Assembly: GCF_041821085.1 (NCBI RefSeq)
Contig: NZ_JBGUAZ010000002.1
Span: 558,001 to 622,000 of the forward strand
DNA length: 64,000 nucleotides
Reading direction: 5' to 3'
Source: Natrinema sp. HArc-T2
Lineage (GTDB): Archaea > Halobacteriota > Halobacteria > Halobacteriales > Natrialbaceae
This document shows, in pieces, positions 1-64,000 of this stretch. The notes under the pieces are model-generated. The model saw nothing but the letters and a program-made list of their open reading frames with translations. It had not been told where the DNA came from and did no database searches. A program made the translations under genes and the position numbers. Position 1 is the stretch's first letter; every line of letters starts with the position of its first letter.

Positions 1-1081
1 TCTCCGAGATCGCACCCGCGTTCTGCGGTGCCTGCAAGATTGCGAACCGCTCACCCATGTTCTCACAGTGAGCGACGAGCGCCTCAGTCAGCCCCTCGAT
101 CTCGTTTTCGTCAGGGACACACATGAGTGAGACATCGTCGAGCTCCCTGAACGCCGCAAGACCGGTTCGCATCCCGGGCTTGTCGATTCCTTCGTAGTCA
201 CTCAGCGACACCGCCTCGGTCTCGGGCATTGCCGAGAGATCAGAGACAACGTTGACATCAACCTCCATTTCACCGGCACGGACCTCCTCGAGCTCCGCCT
301 GCAGCTCCTCCTGTGACTGGGATGCATCGATGTCGAACGGTTTGGCGATCCCCTGGAGCGCGGTGTAGTCTCGGTCCTCGAGATCTGGGGGGATGTAAGC
401 AGCAGTCTCCGACTCATCGTCGACCTCGATTAGCCCACCGTCGGTGTACTCCTCCGGGACCTCTCGAGAGAGCCAAGAGAGCCCTTCGGCGGGTCGACCG
501 TCGCCTTGCTGTTCGAGGTTGACGAGTACGGATCCCGGGATCTGTTTCTCGTAGAACTGGCTGGATTCGGGATCTGCCGACATGTCCTCGTAGACTTCTT
601 CGATGTCGGGTGCGGGATCGGGCTGATCAGATGCGGGTTTGCTGACCGCCTCGAGCTCACACGACCAGTATCGCAGCGTCAGTGTGAAATACTCGTTCTC
701 GCCGTCGTCGACGATCGCGGCGATGGAACTTCCCCATGCGCCCGGCCCGATCGCTTCGACGGCGATGACGTCGTTTCGGTCCTCGTCGACGAGCGTCGTC
801 GTCGCGACGTCCGTCGGCTCGGCGGCTGCGACGCGGCCGACGTAGCAGCGACTCCCGCCGTTTTTGAAGAACCCGTCGACAGCCGCATCGAGATCAGATG
901 ATCGTGGACTCGAGCCGAACGTTCGTTCGAATTCGGAAACACTCGTTACGAGTGTCGGTTCGACAGGGCCGCGCTCCGTTTCTCCAAGAAAGCCAGCAGT
1001 GCTGGTGCTGACACCTTCGACGGATTTGGTGCCGCTGTCGACTTCTTCGACGTATACGCCTGGTGAGAGGTATTCTGGCAT
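1..1081 (-). CDS. Contractile injection system / phage tail sheath protein (3' part outside window)
   Basis: Sheath subunit of a contractile phage-tail-like particle; sheath contraction drives the inner tube through a target membrane. The gene starts at ATG 1081 and is still open at base 1, giving about 360 residues of the N-terminal and middle region. The N-terminus (MPEYLSPGVYVEEVDSG, then STAGFLGETERGP) is the hallmark opening of the sheath family, followed by the GFF-x-NGG-x-R-CYVGRV stretch typical of the first sheath domain. A strong Shine-Dalgarno (GGAGGAG, complement of about 1086-1092) sits 7-12 nt before the start, unusual among the mostly leaderless genes here. It is divergent from the CIS-associated gene at 1485; tube genes would be expected beyond the left edge. 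The family call is secure; whether the particle is intracellular or extracellular cannot be told. Confidence 0.93.
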   Translation of the reverse strand, partial: MPEYLSPGVYVEEVDSGTKSVEGVSTSTAGFLGETERGPVEPTLVTSVSEFERTFGSSPRSSDLDAAVDGFFKNGGSRCYVGRVAAAEPTDVATTTLVDEDRNDVIAVEAIGPGAWGSSIAAIVDDGENEYFTLTLRYWSCELEAVSKPASDQPDPAPDIEEVYEDMSADPESSQFYEKQIPGSVLVNLEQQGDGRPAEGLSWLSREVPEEYTDGGLIEVDDESETAAYIPPDLEDRDYTALQGIAKPFDIDASQSQEELQAELEEVRAGEMEVDVNVVSDLSAMPETEAVSLSDYEGIDKPGMRTGLAAFRELDDVSLMCVPDENEIEGLTEALVAHCENMGERFAILQAPQNAGAISE

Positions 1082-1484
1082 TCGTGTCACTCCTCCTATC
1101 AGTTGTGTGGCGACACTATATTCGACTACATATACTATAAAACTTACTTATTTAAGATAGATGAAAATAGTGGCAATGGCTGTAATTTACAGGTATCTAT
1201 TGGCTGTTTTAATCTACAAAATACTGTCTAACCCGGGATGAAATGAAGTTAGAAAATAGTTCGCTACGATAGTAGCCACTGAGAATCAGTGCACAGCTGA
1301 CCGCACGGAGGCTATGCGATCTCTGTGTGAACCGTTTCAGTTGTTACGATAGATTGCTGTCACAGTGATCGGAGCGAGCGCAGTTCGTCTGCGACCGTTG
1401 CCTCCTGTATATTTCAGTATGTTAAACCACTCATTTCTATCCTTCCGCTACGATTAAATATGTGTGAAACGCTAACTGAACGAC
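1082..1484. promoter_or_regulatory. AT-rich divergent intergenic region between two CIS genes
   Basis: This 403-bp stretch holds no gene that I can support. It is markedly richer in A+T than its surroundings, above all at 1118-1215. For the sheath gene (minus) a TATA-like TTTTATAG lies around 1136-1143, with a strong Shine-Dalgarno near 1086-1092. For the plus-strand gene a TATA-like GATTAAATATG lies at about 1452-1462, some 25-30 nt before ATG 1485, which predicts a leaderless or nearly leaderless transcript. The two CIS genes therefore appear to be fired from one divergent control region, with leadered translation on one side and leaderless on the other. Confidence 0.5.
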
Positions 1485-57374: not shown

Positions 57375-58499
57375 ATGCGCCGACTCTTACAGGCAAAAAC
57401 GGCTGTTCAAAAGCGGCTGCCCGCGGTTTCTCGACTCTCCGTCGCGGCGCTGCTTTTCGCGCTGGCGCTACTCGCTGTGGTTGTCGCAGCAAGTGTCGTC
57501 GAATCCGAATTCCCGTCGAGCACTTCCGTAGACGTGTGGGTCGCTTCATCGCGACTCGTCCTCTGGAGCACCATTGTCGTTCTCATGCTCGTCACGATCA
57601 GTGGCTATCTGCTCTCTCGACGGTACGAGGAGGTGCTCCTCGATCAGTGGAGTCAGTTGTCGAGTTGGGCGCAGGCGATCGTCGCTGGTATCGTCTGTGG
57701 AACGGTCGTTGCAATCGGTCTCGGTGTCGCCACTCTTGCTGGAGCGGTCCCGCTGGCGTTAGTCCCTGTGGGATCGCTGATCGCCTGGCCTGTTGCGACG
57801 GTCTGTACGCTCCGCCAGCGCCGCAAACCGCATGCGGACGATTCCTCGTCCGCGCTGGAGTCGCTACTTATCACGGTCGGATACGCGCAGGCCAAGCACC
57901 TCCAGACACGCACGCTCGCTGGCATCGTGGGTCTTGTCGGTGCCGTCCTCGGAAGCGTCGGCGTTCGTGTGCTGCTCTCGTGGTTCCCGTGGTTCGACGG
58001 GACCCTCACACCACTTCAGACTGCCGTCCTCGCTGTGTGTGGATGGCTACTCGCGACGGTGATCGTCTACAATCGCTACGCGTCGACGATCACCGATCGG
58101 ATCGATCTCCAGCTCGTTGCCGTCTCGAGCCCGGAACTACGGGACGGTCGCGAGCTGACGATCAAAAACACCGGAACCGTCCCCGTCGAGTTGACGCAAG
58201 CGAAGCTTCGTGATACGAACCGTGACTGCTATCAGTTCGGTGTCGGCGTCACGCTCGGACCGGGCGCGTGCTGCTCGTTCGCGGTTCCGGCGTCGTTTTC
58301 GCTCGAGTCGAATGAAACCACGATGGCTCTTCCGCTTGGGTATACGCTCACACAGGGGAGCGAACACCCGATTATTTACACTCGAGACGGCGAGCAGTAC
58401 GTCCTCCGGGAAGGGACTGAACTGCTGGATCGTGATTCCACCCGAGAGACGACCCGACAGACGGTCGCGCTAGGTGTCGAACCAACGCCACAGGAGTAG
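57375..58499 (+). CDS. Multi-pass membrane protein next to CIS genes
   Basis: 374 residues. Six predicted spans: about 21-42 (LSVAALLFALALLAVVVAAS), 58-80 (RLVLWSTIVVLMLVTISGYL), 98-119, 121-145, 178-200 (LAGIVGLVGAVLGSVGVRVL) and 210-230 (LQTAVLAVCGWLLATVIVYN). The C-terminal about 140 residues form a beta-rich domain (LQLVAVSSPELRDGRELTIK, NTGTVPVELTQAKLRDTNRD). No known family. It ends 18 nt before the giant CIS-region ORF on the same strand, so the two are probably co-transcribed. Inference: it could be a membrane partner of the injection particle, for assembly, docking or release. Confidence 0.75.
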   Translation: MRRLLQAKTAVQKRLPAVSRLSVAALLFALALLAVVVAASVVESEFPSSTSVDVWVASSRLVLWSTIVVLMLVTISGYLLSRRYEEVLLDQWSQLSSWAQAIVAGIVCGTVVAIGLGVATLAGAVPLALVPVGSLIAWPVATVCTLRQRRKPHADDSSSALESLLITVGYAQAKHLQTRTLAGIVGLVGAVLGSVGVRVLLSWFPWFDGTLTPLQTAVLAVCGWLLATVIVYNRYASTITDRIDLQLVAVSSPELRDGRELTIKNTGTVPVELTQAKLRDTNRDCYQFGVGVTLGPGACCSFAVPASFSLESNETTMALPLGYTLTQGSEHPIIYTRDGEQYVLREGTELLDRDSTRETTRQTVALGVEPTPQE

Positions 58500-58517: not shown

Positions 58518-61500
58518 ATGCTATGTGACGATCTCGAATGCGAGTCGACACTGCGAGAGATCAGCGTACTTCGCCAGCAGCCGACGACGGACGATTCGTC
58601 GATAGGAATCGAGTCGAACGACCGTCGATCGCCCGCTCGACTCGAGTCCAGCGTCACGGCGATCGCGACGCTGGCGCCCGATCGATTGGCCGGCGGACTC
58701 GGTGTCCGTATTGCCCGGAAACGGAGTCCGGTCGAGTTGTTGTTTCGGTTACCTCTTCTGACACGTCCTGATGACGGGCTGGGAGACGAGTCGGCGGTTT
58801 CGGTCGTGGCTCCGTCTCCGTTAACCGGGACGAAAACAGGACATCGCAAGAGTTCGGGTTCGGCTGTCATCCCAGCAAGCTATCTGAACTGTACCGACCA
58901 GTCTGGCGGTATCCACAATCAGTCCGCCATCGAGCCGATACGTGCTCCTCGTTCGGCCACCGACACGGTGGGTAACTCGGGTGCAGCGTCACGACGACCG
59001 ACCGAGTCACTCTGGACCGATGCAAAGCGGACACGACGACGGAAGCGACGGTCTCCGACGGGGGTGAGACGATCGATGTTCACGGGAGTCGGTACGGAGC
59101 AACTAGACTCCCTCGTCTCGGATGACAGCGGACGAGCGATAGTCATGCCCAACGTGGCTGGATGCGGCTGGTCACACGCACTCGCCACTCGAACCGTGCC
59201 GTCGATCGACGAGACTGCTGACCCGTCCGCCGGTCACGCTCCCTCGAGCCACGTCGTCGACCGTTCCGATACGACGCTCGAGCTTGTAGTCCAGCAGACT
59301 GGCCTTTATGACGGTACAACGGATCCAATCGCGCGACCCGAGCGGACCGAGACACGAGGTGTGGCTCCACCCGCAGACGACAGCGGACAGAGTCGGCTCT
59401 CTGAGGCTGGTTCGACCGTCTGGATGACGGATCGACACACGGTGACAGATGCTGTGGCCGACAATCGACACACTCCTATCTGGCACCGTTCGATGCGACG
59501 GCGCGATGGACTGGCGTTGTGCCAGTATCGTCCGCGACGGAACGATCGTGCACGTGGCGGTCTCGATCCTCTCGCCGCCCGCTCTTCCGACGACCGACAC
59601 GCTCGGACACGCGACCGTCCACCTAGAGGGTTCGATACACTAGATACCGTCTCTCACCCTCACTGTGTGTCTCGATTGCGCTCGCCGTTCTCGTCCCACC
59701 GGTCGACATCGTTCACGACGAGCACCGATCGGAGTCCGAAGCAGCCACGCCTCGAACTGACCGCTTCGATTGCGCCACACGAGGGACCGATCCCCGCGCA
59801 GTCTCGTCTCGTTTCGGTCGTGTCTCGAGGTGTGCACACGCCGGTCCGATACGCTCGAACGGCCCGCAATCCAGTGGCTCGAGCGCCAACGGCTTCGACT
59901 TCCCGCGTCGTTACGAGTGAGTCACAGCGAACGGCTACCCCGCCCACAGTGCCGATGTGGCTGTCGATCGACACTCATGGCTCTCGTGTCCCACGCAGTC
60001 GGTTGTGGCTGCCGCCGCCCACTCATCAGGATCGCAATGTCTCTGGTGGCACCGCCAGCCAGCATCCGCTTCGTTTACAGCGTGTAACCGGGGCTGACCC
60101 CGTCCATCCGTCGGGAACCGCCTCGCCGACCGCGGGTCTGTCCACTCCATTCGATAGCCGACGTATTCGCCACAACCCCGGGCCCGACACACAGCGTCGC
60201 ACTAACGAAGTGCGATCACGAACCGACGAGCGAGCGCCATCGGATCGTGCTCGCCAACCTCGCCGTCTCCTGTCGATTCGATCCGAGAGCGACGCTGCTG
60301 TCGGACTGATCGCACGCAGACCGAGCATGGAGGGGGCAGTCGAGGGAGATGGTGTCGGTTCGGTTCGGTCGATCCGGAGGCGATCTCCGATCCCGAGGGC
60401 CGTCTCGTCTTCGGTCAGTGCGACCCATGCCGATAGCAGCCGATCAGACCGACAACAGCCGGTCTCCGTGAAAACGAACTCGGCCACCACTGCACACGGA
60501 GTGTCACCGGTTGAACGACGCTGGCCACAACAAGTGTCACAACCAGCAATGTCGTTGGGACGGCTCGCCGCTCCGCGATCCGCTCGAGCAGTGTCGCACC
60601 TCGGTTCGCACCGCGCCCTCGAGCGTGCGGTCAATATGATGACCGAACGGAAGTCCCACAGCGACGACAGCGTTCGCCTCTCGCCCCGGCCTCTCTCAGC
60701 GTTGCGAGTGGTACGGTCATCGATCCAGCGACCAGAACGCTCTCGCCGTTTACGACGCGAAACTGGGCGCATCGACGATACCGTGGTTGGTCTGTGGGAA
60801 ACCGTGACCACACCGAACAGATCTCTATACGTGAACCCGTCCGACACGGCGTCTCGAATGCGAATTGCCGCCGATCGAATCAGGAACAGGGCTGTTAGCG
60901 CTGGCTCCACGGATTCGGTATCTGAGATCCGAGGGCTCTACCAGTCGAACCCCCTCGCTCGCGGCGGTGCATTCGGCACAATGCCTGTCCAGCGCGACCG
61001 ACCGGGTGAAAACGAACTCGACGCGAGTTCCCGGCTGCTGGTGCCCCCAACGGTTACTGACGACCGATCGCATTCCCGCTTGTCCGACAGGACGACAGCA
61101 ACGGCGCTCACGATGATCGAATCGTCGGGACCGATAGCCGGTTCAGGACGACCGGCCTCGAGCGATCGACACCTCGTCGCAAGACTGCAATCGAGCGCAC
61201 GGACATCGCGGGAATCGTCTCACTCACGGCATGGATACGAGCCGAGCGGGCATGGTCGAAACGGGATCGACCCGACCTGTGGCGTTCGATCACCACCGCT
61301 TGGGATCAACGAGACAACCCGACGACAGCACTCGTCGTGGATACAGCGCAAACAACGTGGTGAGAGACGCGTCTCGGTGGGTGGCGGTCGATCAGCGGAC
61401 GTATCGACTGCGTTCGATGTCGTCGAGTTGCCCTCGGATTCGATTGCGCCGCCGAGGAGCGGCCCACGATCGGGCCCACCGTCCGTGATTGGGATAGAAA

Positions 61501-62843
61501 TTCGTGGCGATTGCGGTGCTTGTTCGACCGGTGCCGACGATCGGGGTCGTAATCTGCAGGACGGAACGGCACCGCTCTCGCCGACGCGCCCTGCTGTCTC
61601 ACCGTCTCGTGTCGCTGTCACTCTTCCTCGAACGACACGTTCGGAGCCGACCGTGGCAACGAGTCGACACCGATACCGGCCTGCTGGCGATCGGACTCGT
61701 CTACGTACCGATCGTTCGATTCCTGACCTGAGCGACGCTGGCGTGCCGTCACGTGAACCCGTGTGGCCCAAGTGCGGTGATCGGACAGTGTCGCCTCGTC
61801 TCTTTCGGACGACAAGACGATCCTCGCACTCTACCCTGTGGACGGCGGCTTCCCGAGCCCCCGTCGTCTCTCAGCTAGATTACGTCGGGTCTCTCGCCTT
61901 GAAGCTCCCAGTCGCGGCCACCGTCGACGAAACTGATGACCGTGTCGGTATCGATACTGCCGACTCGGTTACGGCTCCACAGCCCCGTCTGTCGATCGCG
62001 AGCCCAGCCAACTTCAGGAATCGGCGGTTCCAACCCAGCCGCCGTCTGCGGCGGCGGTTGTCGACGGCGGACTCTTCGGCGCGTCGATCGCTCGACGAAC
62101 CCCGACTCGAGAACGATCGTCTGGGGGCTCCGTCGCTTGTATACCCTCCTCGAGAGTACGGCTCGGAAGCTATCGTGACGGCACTAGATTCGCCGTCACG
62201 CGGACGGTGGGTGGAATATACTTCGAACCGGATGTATAGAACAACAAATAATAGTGTTGAATTAATAGAAGAAAATAAAATGGAAGTAGGGCTGCGACCG
62301 AACGCAGGAACAGAACGTCCCTCATTGACGTACCGAACAACGGCAGATGCGGATATGCCATCCGTCGATCGGGACAGGTCGCATCGACTGACTGACGATG
62401 TGTCGAACTCGACAGCCGCGTCGACTGGAGCCTCTCGTGGCTCCAGCCCACGGCGTTCCAGTCGGAATCTCAGGCAGGATCGACACCAGCGCTGGGGGCC
62501 GGAACATGCAGCGCCAGCCGATGACGATAGCGACCGAACGCAAGCAGCGTTCCGTTCGGATACCGATCCGAATCCGGGCTCGGCACATCGTGGGCAATCT
62601 GGGAGTCGTGACGACGGACATCCCTGGCCGGACGAAACACGACAATCACCGATCCAACGACCGGGGCTATCGATCGATCCCGCTCCTGACTCGACTCACC
62701 ACCACGGGCACCGCTTCGATGGCGTCGACGTGCCATCGGGCACTGACCCACGCTTCGACGCCGATGTCGATCGTGCCGTCCAGGAACTCTATCGGAAACT
62801 CGAGCGGAAACTCAGGATCGAGCGCGACCGGAGGGGGCTGTAG
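58518..62843 (+). CDS. Giant Arg/Ser/Thr-rich, mostly disordered protein of the CIS region
   Basis: 1441 residues from ATG 58518 (MLCDDLECESTLREISVLRQ). Composition is unlike the acidic haloarchaeal norm: Arg, Ser, Thr and Pro dominate and Lys is scarce. Little globular structure is expected, apart from a short N-terminal part and a C-terminal helix. The last 25 residues (VDRAVQELYRKLERKLRIER, then DRRGL) form an amphipathic helix. From memory, similar endings occur in low-complexity proteins encoded just before the LysM adaptor in other CIS clusters. The frame is open for 4.3 kb; at about 60% GC chance would give a stop roughly every 30 codons, so the frame is under selection. ATG of the LysM gene follows the stop directly. 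An internal AT-rich stretch at 62216-62280 raises the option of a second start at ATG 62281. Confidence 0.65.
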   Translation: MLCDDLECESTLREISVLRQQPTTDDSSIGIESNDRRSPARLESSVTAIATLAPDRLAGGLGVRIARKRSPVELLFRLPLLTRPDDGLGDESAVSVVAPSPLTGTKTGHRKSSGSAVIPASYLNCTDQSGGIHNQSAIEPIRAPRSATDTVGNSGAASRRPTESLWTDAKRTRRRKRRSPTGVRRSMFTGVGTEQLDSLVSDDSGRAIVMPNVAGCGWSHALATRTVPSIDETADPSAGHAPSSHVVDRSDTTLELVVQQTGLYDGTTDPIARPERTETRGVAPPADDSGQSRLSEAGSTVWMTDRHTVTDAVADNRHTPIWHRSMRRRDGLALCQYRPRRNDRARGGLDPLAARSSDDRHARTRDRPPRGFDTLDTVSHPHCVSRLRSPFSSHRSTSFTTSTDRSPKQPRLELTASIAPHEGPIPAQSRLVSVVSRGVHTPVRYARTARNPVARAPTASTSRVVTSESQRTATPPTVPMWLSIDTHGSRVPRSRLWLPPPTHQDRNVSGGTASQHPLRLQRVTGADPVHPSGTASPTAGLSTPFDSRRIRHNPGPDTQRRTNEVRSRTDERAPSDRARQPRRLLSIRSESDAAVGLIARRPSMEGAVEGDGVGSVRSIRRRSPIPRAVSSSVSATHADSSRSDRQQPVSVKTNSATTAHGVSPVERRWPQQVSQPAMSLGRLAAPRSARAVSHLGSHRALERAVNMMTERKSHSDDSVRLSPRPLSALRVVRSSIQRPERSRRLRRETGRIDDTVVGLWETVTTPNRSLYVNPSDTASRMRIAADRIRNRAVSAGSTDSVSEIRGLYQSNPLARGGAFGTMPVQRDRPGENELDASSRLLVPPTVTDDRSHSRLSDRTTATALTMIESSGPIAGSGRPASSDRHLVARLQSSARTSRESSHSRHGYEPSGHGRNGIDPTCGVRSPPLGINETTRRQHSSWIQRKQRGERRVSVGGGRSADVSTAFDVVELPSDSIAPPRSGPRSGPPSVIGIEIRGDCGACSTGADDRGRNLQDGTAPLSPTRPAVSPSRVAVTLPRTTRSEPTVATSRHRYRPAGDRTRLRTDRSIPDLSDAGVPSREPVWPKCGDRTVSPRLFRTTRRSSHSTLWTAASRAPVVSQLDYVGSLALKLPVAATVDETDDRVGIDTADSVTAPQPRLSIASPANFRNRRFQPSRRLRRRLSTADSSARRSLDEPRLENDRLGAPSLVYPPREYGSEAIVTALDSPSRGRWVEYTSNRMYRTTNNSVELIEENKMEVGLRPNAGTERPSLTYRTTADADMPSVDRDRSHRLTDDVSNSTAASTGASRGSSPRRSSRNLRQDRHQRWGPEHAAPADDDSDRTQAAFRSDTDPNPGSAHRGQSGSRDDGHPWPDETRQSPIQRPGLSIDPAPDSTHHHGHRFDGVDVPSGTDPRFDADVDRAVQELYRKLERKLRIERDRRGL
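62216..62280 (+). other. AT-rich island inside the giant ORF, possible internal promoter
   Basis: About 65 bp that are strikingly A+T-rich (GAATATACTTCG, AACAACAAATAATAG, GAATTAATAGAAG, AAAATAAA) compared with both sides. It stays open in frame, coding for Asn/Glu/Thr-rich sequence, and ends exactly at ATG 62281 (MEVGLRPNAGTERPSLTYRT). The layout looks like a promoter before a 187-codon gene that ends at 62843. Either the giant ORF contains an internal promoter, or two genes are joined in one frame. Confidence 0.45.
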
Positions 62844-63523: not shown

Positions 63524-64000
63524 ATGCAGACTGGAACGAGCATTCAGCCACGCTACTCGCCGCGGTTCAGGGTCGATGTCGGTGATACGACGTTTCAGGA
63601 ACCGGGCGGTCGAATCGCAGATCTCGTCGTCGAGACGACGCTCGACGGCGCGGACCGGTTTTCGTTCACGCTCAACTTTCCGTTCGACGAGGAACTCGGC
63701 GAGTTCAGCGGGCTGACGTGGGACGATTTCGCAATCGGGACGGCCATCGAAATCGCGATGGGGTATGGCGGCGACGGAACCCTGACACCGTTGCTAACTG
63801 GCTCGATTCGATCGATCAACGCCGAGTTCACGACCGATCGAGGACCGTCGGTTACGGTCTCCGGCTACGGGCTACTCTGGGAGCTCATGCAAGGAACGAG
63901 TTCGGAGTCGTGGACGGAGACCACGGTCGGAGAGGTCGTCACGGACGTGCTATCGTCGTACTCGTTTTCGACGGTCGACGTCTCGGACGCGGCGATCAAC
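63524..64000 (+). CDS. CIS spike protein, VgrG/phage late control D type (3' part outside window)
   Basis: First 159 residues of a gene that runs off the right edge; start ATG 63524, 2 nt after the LysM gene stop. The N-terminus (MQTGTSIQPRYSPRFRVDVG, then DLVVETTLDGADRFSFTLNF) and the segment with ELGEFSGLTWDDF and VTVSGYGLLWELMQGTSSES match the gp27-like hub domain of VgrG/GPD proteins that trimerise to form the spike base. The gene order LysM-VgrG is the standard CIS order, expected to be followed by gp25-like and baseplate genes. Confidence 0.9.
   Translation, partial: MQTGTSIQPRYSPRFRVDVGDTTFQEPGGRIADLVVETTLDGADRFSFTLNFPFDEELGEFSGLTWDDFAIGTAIEIAMGYGGDGTLTPLLTGSIRSINAEFTTDRGPSVTVSGYGLLWELMQGTSSESWTETTVGEVVTDVLSSYSFSTVDVSDAAIN

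Follow-up and report, generated by a model that had tools for sequence, protein, structure and literature searches.

A giant disordered protein encoded beside the tube initiator gene is a candidate plug of a haloarchaeal contractile injection system

What is the role of a 1441-codon open reading frame (ORF) that lies directly before the tube initiator gene cis7 of a haloarchaeal contractile injection system (CIS)? The ORF is located in a 64,000-nucleotide stretch of the Natrinema sp. HArc-T2 genome (contig NZ_JBGUAZ010000002.1, positions 558,001 to 622,000; here called the window). For the type VI secretion system (T6SS) of Halogeometricum borinquense, the plug gene cis6 and the tape measure gene cis14 were reported absent (PMC11566945), and in the first archaeal T6SS paper Cis6 was taken out of the fitted baseplate, since no gene for it had been found (PMC11566945). 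We propose, with a probability of about 0.5, that the giant protein is a plug-type protein of the CIS (archaeal T6SS) baseplate hub with a very long disordered arm, which may lie in the tube lumen.

The giant ORF starts with ATG, and its product has an isoelectric point (pI) of 11.0 (R 14.4%, S 12.8%, P 8.4%, T 8.3%, K 1.0%), compared with 4.1 to 4.9 for soluble neighbor proteins and 4.8 to 6.5 for membrane proteins. This confirms the original prediction, made on the letters of the window, of a basic, Arg/Ser-rich protein among acidic ones. GC content at the third codon position is lower in the giant ORF (0.61) than in the other genes measured (0.69 to 0.86), so coding statistics alone would not have picked it out. 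It contains 0 in-frame stops versus about 33 expected from its own position-specific composition, and the remaining five frames across it carry 15 to 37 stops each. The decisive evidence for translation in this frame comes from relatives: all arm indels that separate the members of seven close pairs have lengths divisible by 3 (5/5, 18/18, 12/12, 20/20, 9/9, 14/14, and 11/11). Further pairs gave 13/16, 30/35, and 26/30, counts that we think are blurred by misalignment, and one pair at 47% identity was uninformative. Taken together, the missing stops and the frame-keeping indels rule out a chance ORF. Repeats at the DNA level within the ORF amount to weak short pairs, and a plasmid search with the full giant protein as query gave no match.

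Among 391 Halobacteria genomes searched for Cis7, the protein was present in 46 (this genome included), and the upstream DNA was taken for all of them. A long ORF ends at cis7 in 46/46 loci, with a length of 1,096 to 2,365 amino acids (aa) in 34 (this one included) and 381 to 625 aa in 12; the product of 2,365 aa is that of Haloferax elongans. All 46 products are Arg/Ser/Thr/Pro-rich and Lys-poor (R/(R+K), 0.94), and their C termini follow the consensus D-R-x-V-x-x-LYRxLERKxRIERERRG or a close variant. When the last 187 residues were modeled with AlphaFold2, a helix was predicted at residues 157 to 185 with a mean predicted local distance difference test (pLDDT) score of >90; the rest was of low confidence, as expected for disorder, and the N-terminal 150 residues gave no confident fold, in line with the earlier remark that hardly any fold can be recognized. 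The ORF is not uniform: its ends are conserved, and an AT-rich island stands ahead of an internal Met. Compared with N. limicola, the ratio of nonsynonymous to synonymous substitution rates (dN/dS) is 0.72 for the whole ORF, 0.44 for the first 80 codons, and 0.03 for the last 40 codons (0.06 for cis7), so that the conservation whose absence would have counted against the prediction is present. Whole-ORF values in other pairs range from 0.44 to 0.77; most pairs show constraint on the first 80 codons (0.10 to 0.62), and the middle is nearly unconstrained (0.5 to 0.8). The middle resembles a spacer whose composition and frame count for more than its sequence; selection acts on frame, composition, and ends and hardly at all on the inner sequence.

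A profile of the haloarchaeal C terminus was run on 3,715 stop-to-stop ORFs of bacterial CIS loci, and it yielded only three significant matches, in Rhizobium (2.7e-8), Nostoc (1.3e-5), and Paenibacillus (2.2e-4), each directly before cis7. These counterparts are long and basic (pI 10 to 12), and none has a Pfam match. The gene order in Nostoc is tail protein, long ORF, LysM, and in Nostoc sp. UHCC 0926 the slot before cis7 holds a homologue of 524 aa. Both the C-terminal helix, to which the original prediction had drawn attention, and the predicted slot of a tape-like or linker protein before the LysM adaptor are thus kept in 46/46 haloarchaeal loci and in three bacteria. Similar-looking long ORFs occupy the same slot in Rhodococcus, Embleya, and Paraburkholderia, with profile scores below significance. 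In other bacterial clusters, the slot holds an ORF of 59 to 71 aa; the one from Azospirillum matched DUF5908 (5e-10), which served as a positive control, and weakly matched (E value, 0.03) the AlgoCIS plug Alg6 (PDB 7aef).

This slot is that of the plug in known systems. Alg6 consists of an N-terminal strand, a flexible loop, and a C-terminal helix, and it is essential: no particles form without it (PMC8894135). In Anabaena, the plug of the spike is made of three Cis6 copies, and a flexible Cis6 loop enters the negatively charged tube lumen (PMC8894136); a Cis6 trimer in the Cis8 cavity, or a need for it in assembly, is known for AlgoCIS, metamorphosis-associated contractile structures, and, by structure, Anabaena (PMC8894135, PMC8894136). 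Since PDB entry 7B5H labels Anabaena Cis7 as All3321, the Anabaena plug gene would by gene order lie directly upstream, the very slot that is occupied by the Nostoc sp. UHCC 0926 homologue. The Anabaena Cis6 sequence was not found in the PDB search; DUF6760 was considered as the Anabaena plug and dropped, as it gave no relevant PDB match. The literature search found no prior description of Hbor_38630 or All3322. The giant protein shares with the Cis6/Alg6/Afp6 plugs (DUF5908, PF19265) the place next to cis7, the C-terminal helix, and the baseplate hub context, and its candidate nested product may have the strand-loop-helix layout of Alg6. It differs in its length (381 to 2,365 aa across the family, compared with 52 to 71 aa for the short plugs and Alg6), in its internal start, and in the lack of a DUF5908 profile match, so what we claim is plug-like working rather than membership of DUF5908. 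The RPSLTYR motif is conserved, yet AlphaFold2 did not model a strand there; the helix is confident and the loop unstructured. A plug function is fairly probable, more so than the rest of our proposal: the C-terminal helix and an RPSL(V/T)YR strand would sit in the lumen-facing Cis8 spike cavity under Cis7, like the Cis6/Alg6 trimer.

The AT-rich island suggests how a short plug might arise from a giant gene. In 29/33 giants, the lowest-GC 60-nucleotide (nt) stretch of the ORF lies 180 to 285 codons from its 3' end, with z scores of about -4 to -7; in the window, it has 25% GC in 60 nt (z -6.5). In most of these 29, a conserved Met comes after the island, with an RP[SA]L[VT]YR, TFVYR, or MVYR-like motif no more than about 15 residues further on. 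The H. larsenii annotation lists a 177-aa gene (L078:8286-8819) that starts exactly at the conserved Met, and no gene on the same strand for 2,100 in-frame codons upstream, although the PLSDB table is incomplete. An internal promoter probably drives a minimal plug together with the baseplate genes from cis7 onward, and a nested plug of 170 to 257 aa is probably made as well in most giants; one particle could then mix short plugs with a few long-armed ones. There is an appreciable minority chance that the island is merely a Lys/Asn/Tyr-rich protein segment with neither promoter nor short form, which would be compatible with all the other readings: canonical TATA forms are missing from the window's own island and the Natrinema group, and the island itself is absent in Halohasta and in the short-arm group. 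Such a segment would hardly be expected to form the GC minimum of the ORF in so many giants and to encode Lys within otherwise Lys-poor proteins, nor to carry a TATA-like box at a narrow distance (39 to 56 nt) before the conserved Met in many relatives. The Halohasta-group giants without the island (L057, L059, and L062) have the anchor homologue described below on the opposite strand.

Where the arm goes is a separate question. An arm of 1,000 to 2,200 residues would run from the hub into the inner tube, as a weakly non-acidic chain within an acidic tube, and fill or span its lumen; we rate this location at slightly less than even odds. The least certain step is that arm length would help to set sheath and tube length, replacing the missing tape measure, an attractive, unproven, and on balance unlikely role. 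Like a tape measure (Afp14/Cis14, phage TMP), the giant ORF is the largest of the baseplate subcluster and stands before the baseplate genes, and no cis14 was found there; unlike one, its product is unstructured rather than helical in the parts modeled. The Tme effector of Streptomyces davawensis is likewise a large, largely disordered CIS protein encoded upstream of baseplate genes (PMC11126660), but it has DUF4157, transmembrane (TM) helices, and a nuclease domain, none of which the giant protein has. Closer in composition are the long disordered-looking CIS proteins of Streptomyces and relatives (416 to 1,381 aa), which are Arg-rich, Lys-poor, and mostly basic and stand before tube initiator genes; they differ in being encoded one gene further upstream, before a cis5-like gene. 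In Streptomyces-type clusters (L110:3324-7469, L114:5736-8456, and L117:4361-7423), a 900- to 1,381-aa Pro/Ala/Arg-rich, disordered-looking protein precedes the tube initiator gene. S. coelicolor particles have identical length without a tape measure gene (PMC12237407), and the Streptomyces-type protein is a candidate for this unexplained length control.

With a Streptomyces sheath rise of 1.72 nm contracted and 3.85 nm extended (PMC10066040), the arithmetic of such a ruler is suggestive only. The 22 tube rings plus two initiator rings of Anabaena (about 92 nm) set against the 524 aa of Nostoc give 0.18 nm/aa, and the 60 plus two rings of S. coelicolor (about 239 nm) set against the 1,381 aa of S. 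clavuligerus give 0.17 nm/aa; each pair mixes species, and other streptomycetes have 416 to 1,020 aa. H. borinquense contracted sheaths average 220 +/- 16 nm (PMC11566945), or about 490 nm extended, for which the same ratio predicts an ORF of about 2,800 codons. That one gene supplies both missing parts, a plug from the internal promoter and a longer version of it that carries a disordered luminal arm as tape measure, is a tentative idea that we consider unlikely.

Several results weigh against a plug with a luminal arm. The giant protein and its C terminus match neither DUF5908 nor any Pfam, NCBIfam, or PHROGs family, and with no PDB match, the identity of the Anabaena Cis6 chain with the giant protein could not be shown. 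The C terminus of the Streptomyces protein is not significantly related to the haloarchaeal one. Periodicity of charge, hydrophobics, aromatics, or proline in the arm was not above shuffles, and none fitted a ring repeat. H. borinquense tomograms are without extra luminal density (Zachs et al.), although a single thin disordered chain could escape detection at low contrast, and mass spectrometry of H. borinquense sheath preparations detected Cis2 only (PMC11566945). Some close species differ in ORF length by 10 to 16%; lengths are kept in some pairs (1441/1442) and unequal in others (1852/2154), and the data do not establish strict length control. A route of arm-length change can be read off the short-arm protein of locus L072, which contains a large near-identical internal duplication (residues about 78 to 210 and 220 to 357).

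The 374-aa multi-TM protein encoded just upstream offers a different use for the arm. Six TM segments are predicted in its relatives, and it likely corresponds to Hbor_38620, the putative T6SS membrane anchor. A homologue was detected in 8/8 giant-arm genomes tested and in 0/12 short-arm genomes, with a weak match in 2/3 intermediates and none detectable in the third (G119, 1,096 aa). Giant forms (>1,300 aa) accompany the putative anchor, and loci without it encode 381 to 625 aa; this pattern agrees with the anchor-bearing clade for which T6SS mode has been proposed (PMC11566945). These data could be read as an assembly tether, in which the helix is held in the hub while the arm stays outside the tube and its N-terminal motif binds the six-TM anchor, reeling baseplates to the membrane. 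A tether would account for the adjacency and co-occurrence of the two genes (as well as a ruler does), for the partly conserved N terminus, and for the empty-looking lumen. We nevertheless regard it as improbable: the giant-arm and short-arm groups are two clades, so ancestry confounds the association, the intermediates have weak or undetectable anchors, and no such neighbor was seen in bacteria with long arms.

It is less likely still that only the nested protein of about 187 aa matters and that the arm is a dispensable in-frame extension of little function. The near-neutral dN/dS of the arm, the short protein listed alone in H. larsenii, and the conserved island and Met would fit such a case, but stops and frameshifts should then have arisen. 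None was found in the giant loci examined, where 20 to 60 stops are expected by chance, and both the frame-keeping indels and the constrained N-terminal 80 codons speak for a retained arm.

The basic charge holds for this sequence and is not a family trait; net charge per residue of the giants averages +0.014 (range, -0.04 to +0.05), and the family is near neutral. A secreted or injected cargo, effector, or nucleic acid-binding polycation is very improbable: the protein is Arg-rich and basic in this genome, but family searches found no DUF4157, effector, nuclease, or other enzyme domain, helix and position persist in many relatives whose net charge is neutral or acidic, which leaves the suggested DNA/RNA-binding and surface-binding roles without support, and conservation is strongest in a helix that goes with the cis7 slot. 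The original prediction is therefore supported in part, with its observation confirmed; it did not extend to the AT-rich island with its internal Met, to the correspondence with the missing-plug slot, or to the link with the six-TM anchor.

Features of the giant ORF and neighboring CIS genes in the window
Feature	Coordinates	Strand	Remark
Giant ORF of 1441 codons; product disordered, rich in Arg/Ser/Thr/Pro, C terminus plug-like	58518..62843	+	
N-terminal ~92 residues, partly conserved (LREISV ... IATL.PDRLAGG.G.RIARKRSP..L.FR)	58518..58793	+	No confident fold by AlphaFold2
Low-complexity disordered arm	58794..62214	+	Composition and frame kept, sequence drifts, length changes by in-frame indels
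AT-rich island inside giant ORF, candidate internal promoter	62215..62279	+	
Candidate short product (187 aa) nested in giant ORF, starting at conserved internal Met	62280..62843	+	Comprises RPSLTYR motif, disordered loop, and C-terminal helix
RPSLTYR motif, candidate N-terminal strand of plug	62316..62336	+	
C-terminal helix DVDRAVQELYRKLERKLRIERDRRG, most conserved element	62748..62834	+	
Multi-TM protein, 374 aa, 18 nt upstream of giant ORF	57375..58499	+	
cis7, CIS_tube + LysM tube initiator, 225 aa	62844..63521	+	
cis8, VgrG-like spike hub, 342 aa, extends beyond window end	63524..64000	+	
Part of sheath gene cis2 (576 aa in full)	2..1090	-	Inner-tube genes come next on adjoining stretch

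The gene downstream of the giant ORF was identified as the tube initiator cis7 by its CIS_tube match (PF19266, 3e-34) and its LysM domain, and cis8 stands where H. larsenii has its VgrG/Pvc8-family gene. The CIS genes are dispersed along one contig, with the cap (Pvc16) at about 202 kb (202456-202992), the sheath and two tube genes at 555-559 kb, and the baseplate genes at about 615-631 kb. The sheath and tube genes continue from window positions 2-1090 (minus strand) on the adjoining stretch (L112:15359-19090, minus strand), where an open frame of pI 11.9 without a Pfam match (L112:16364-16822, minus strand), possibly spurious, lies between the two tube genes.

The locus provides candidates for the two missing parts of the archaeal T6SS in what is probably a gene within a gene with its own promoter. 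With a conserved protein lacking any family description in the plug slot, both the plug and the tape measure questions become testable in genetically usable haloarchaea. If one gene does supply both parts, the ruler would be made of disordered rather than helical protein, which may also explain the fixed-length bacterial CISs that have no tape measure gene.

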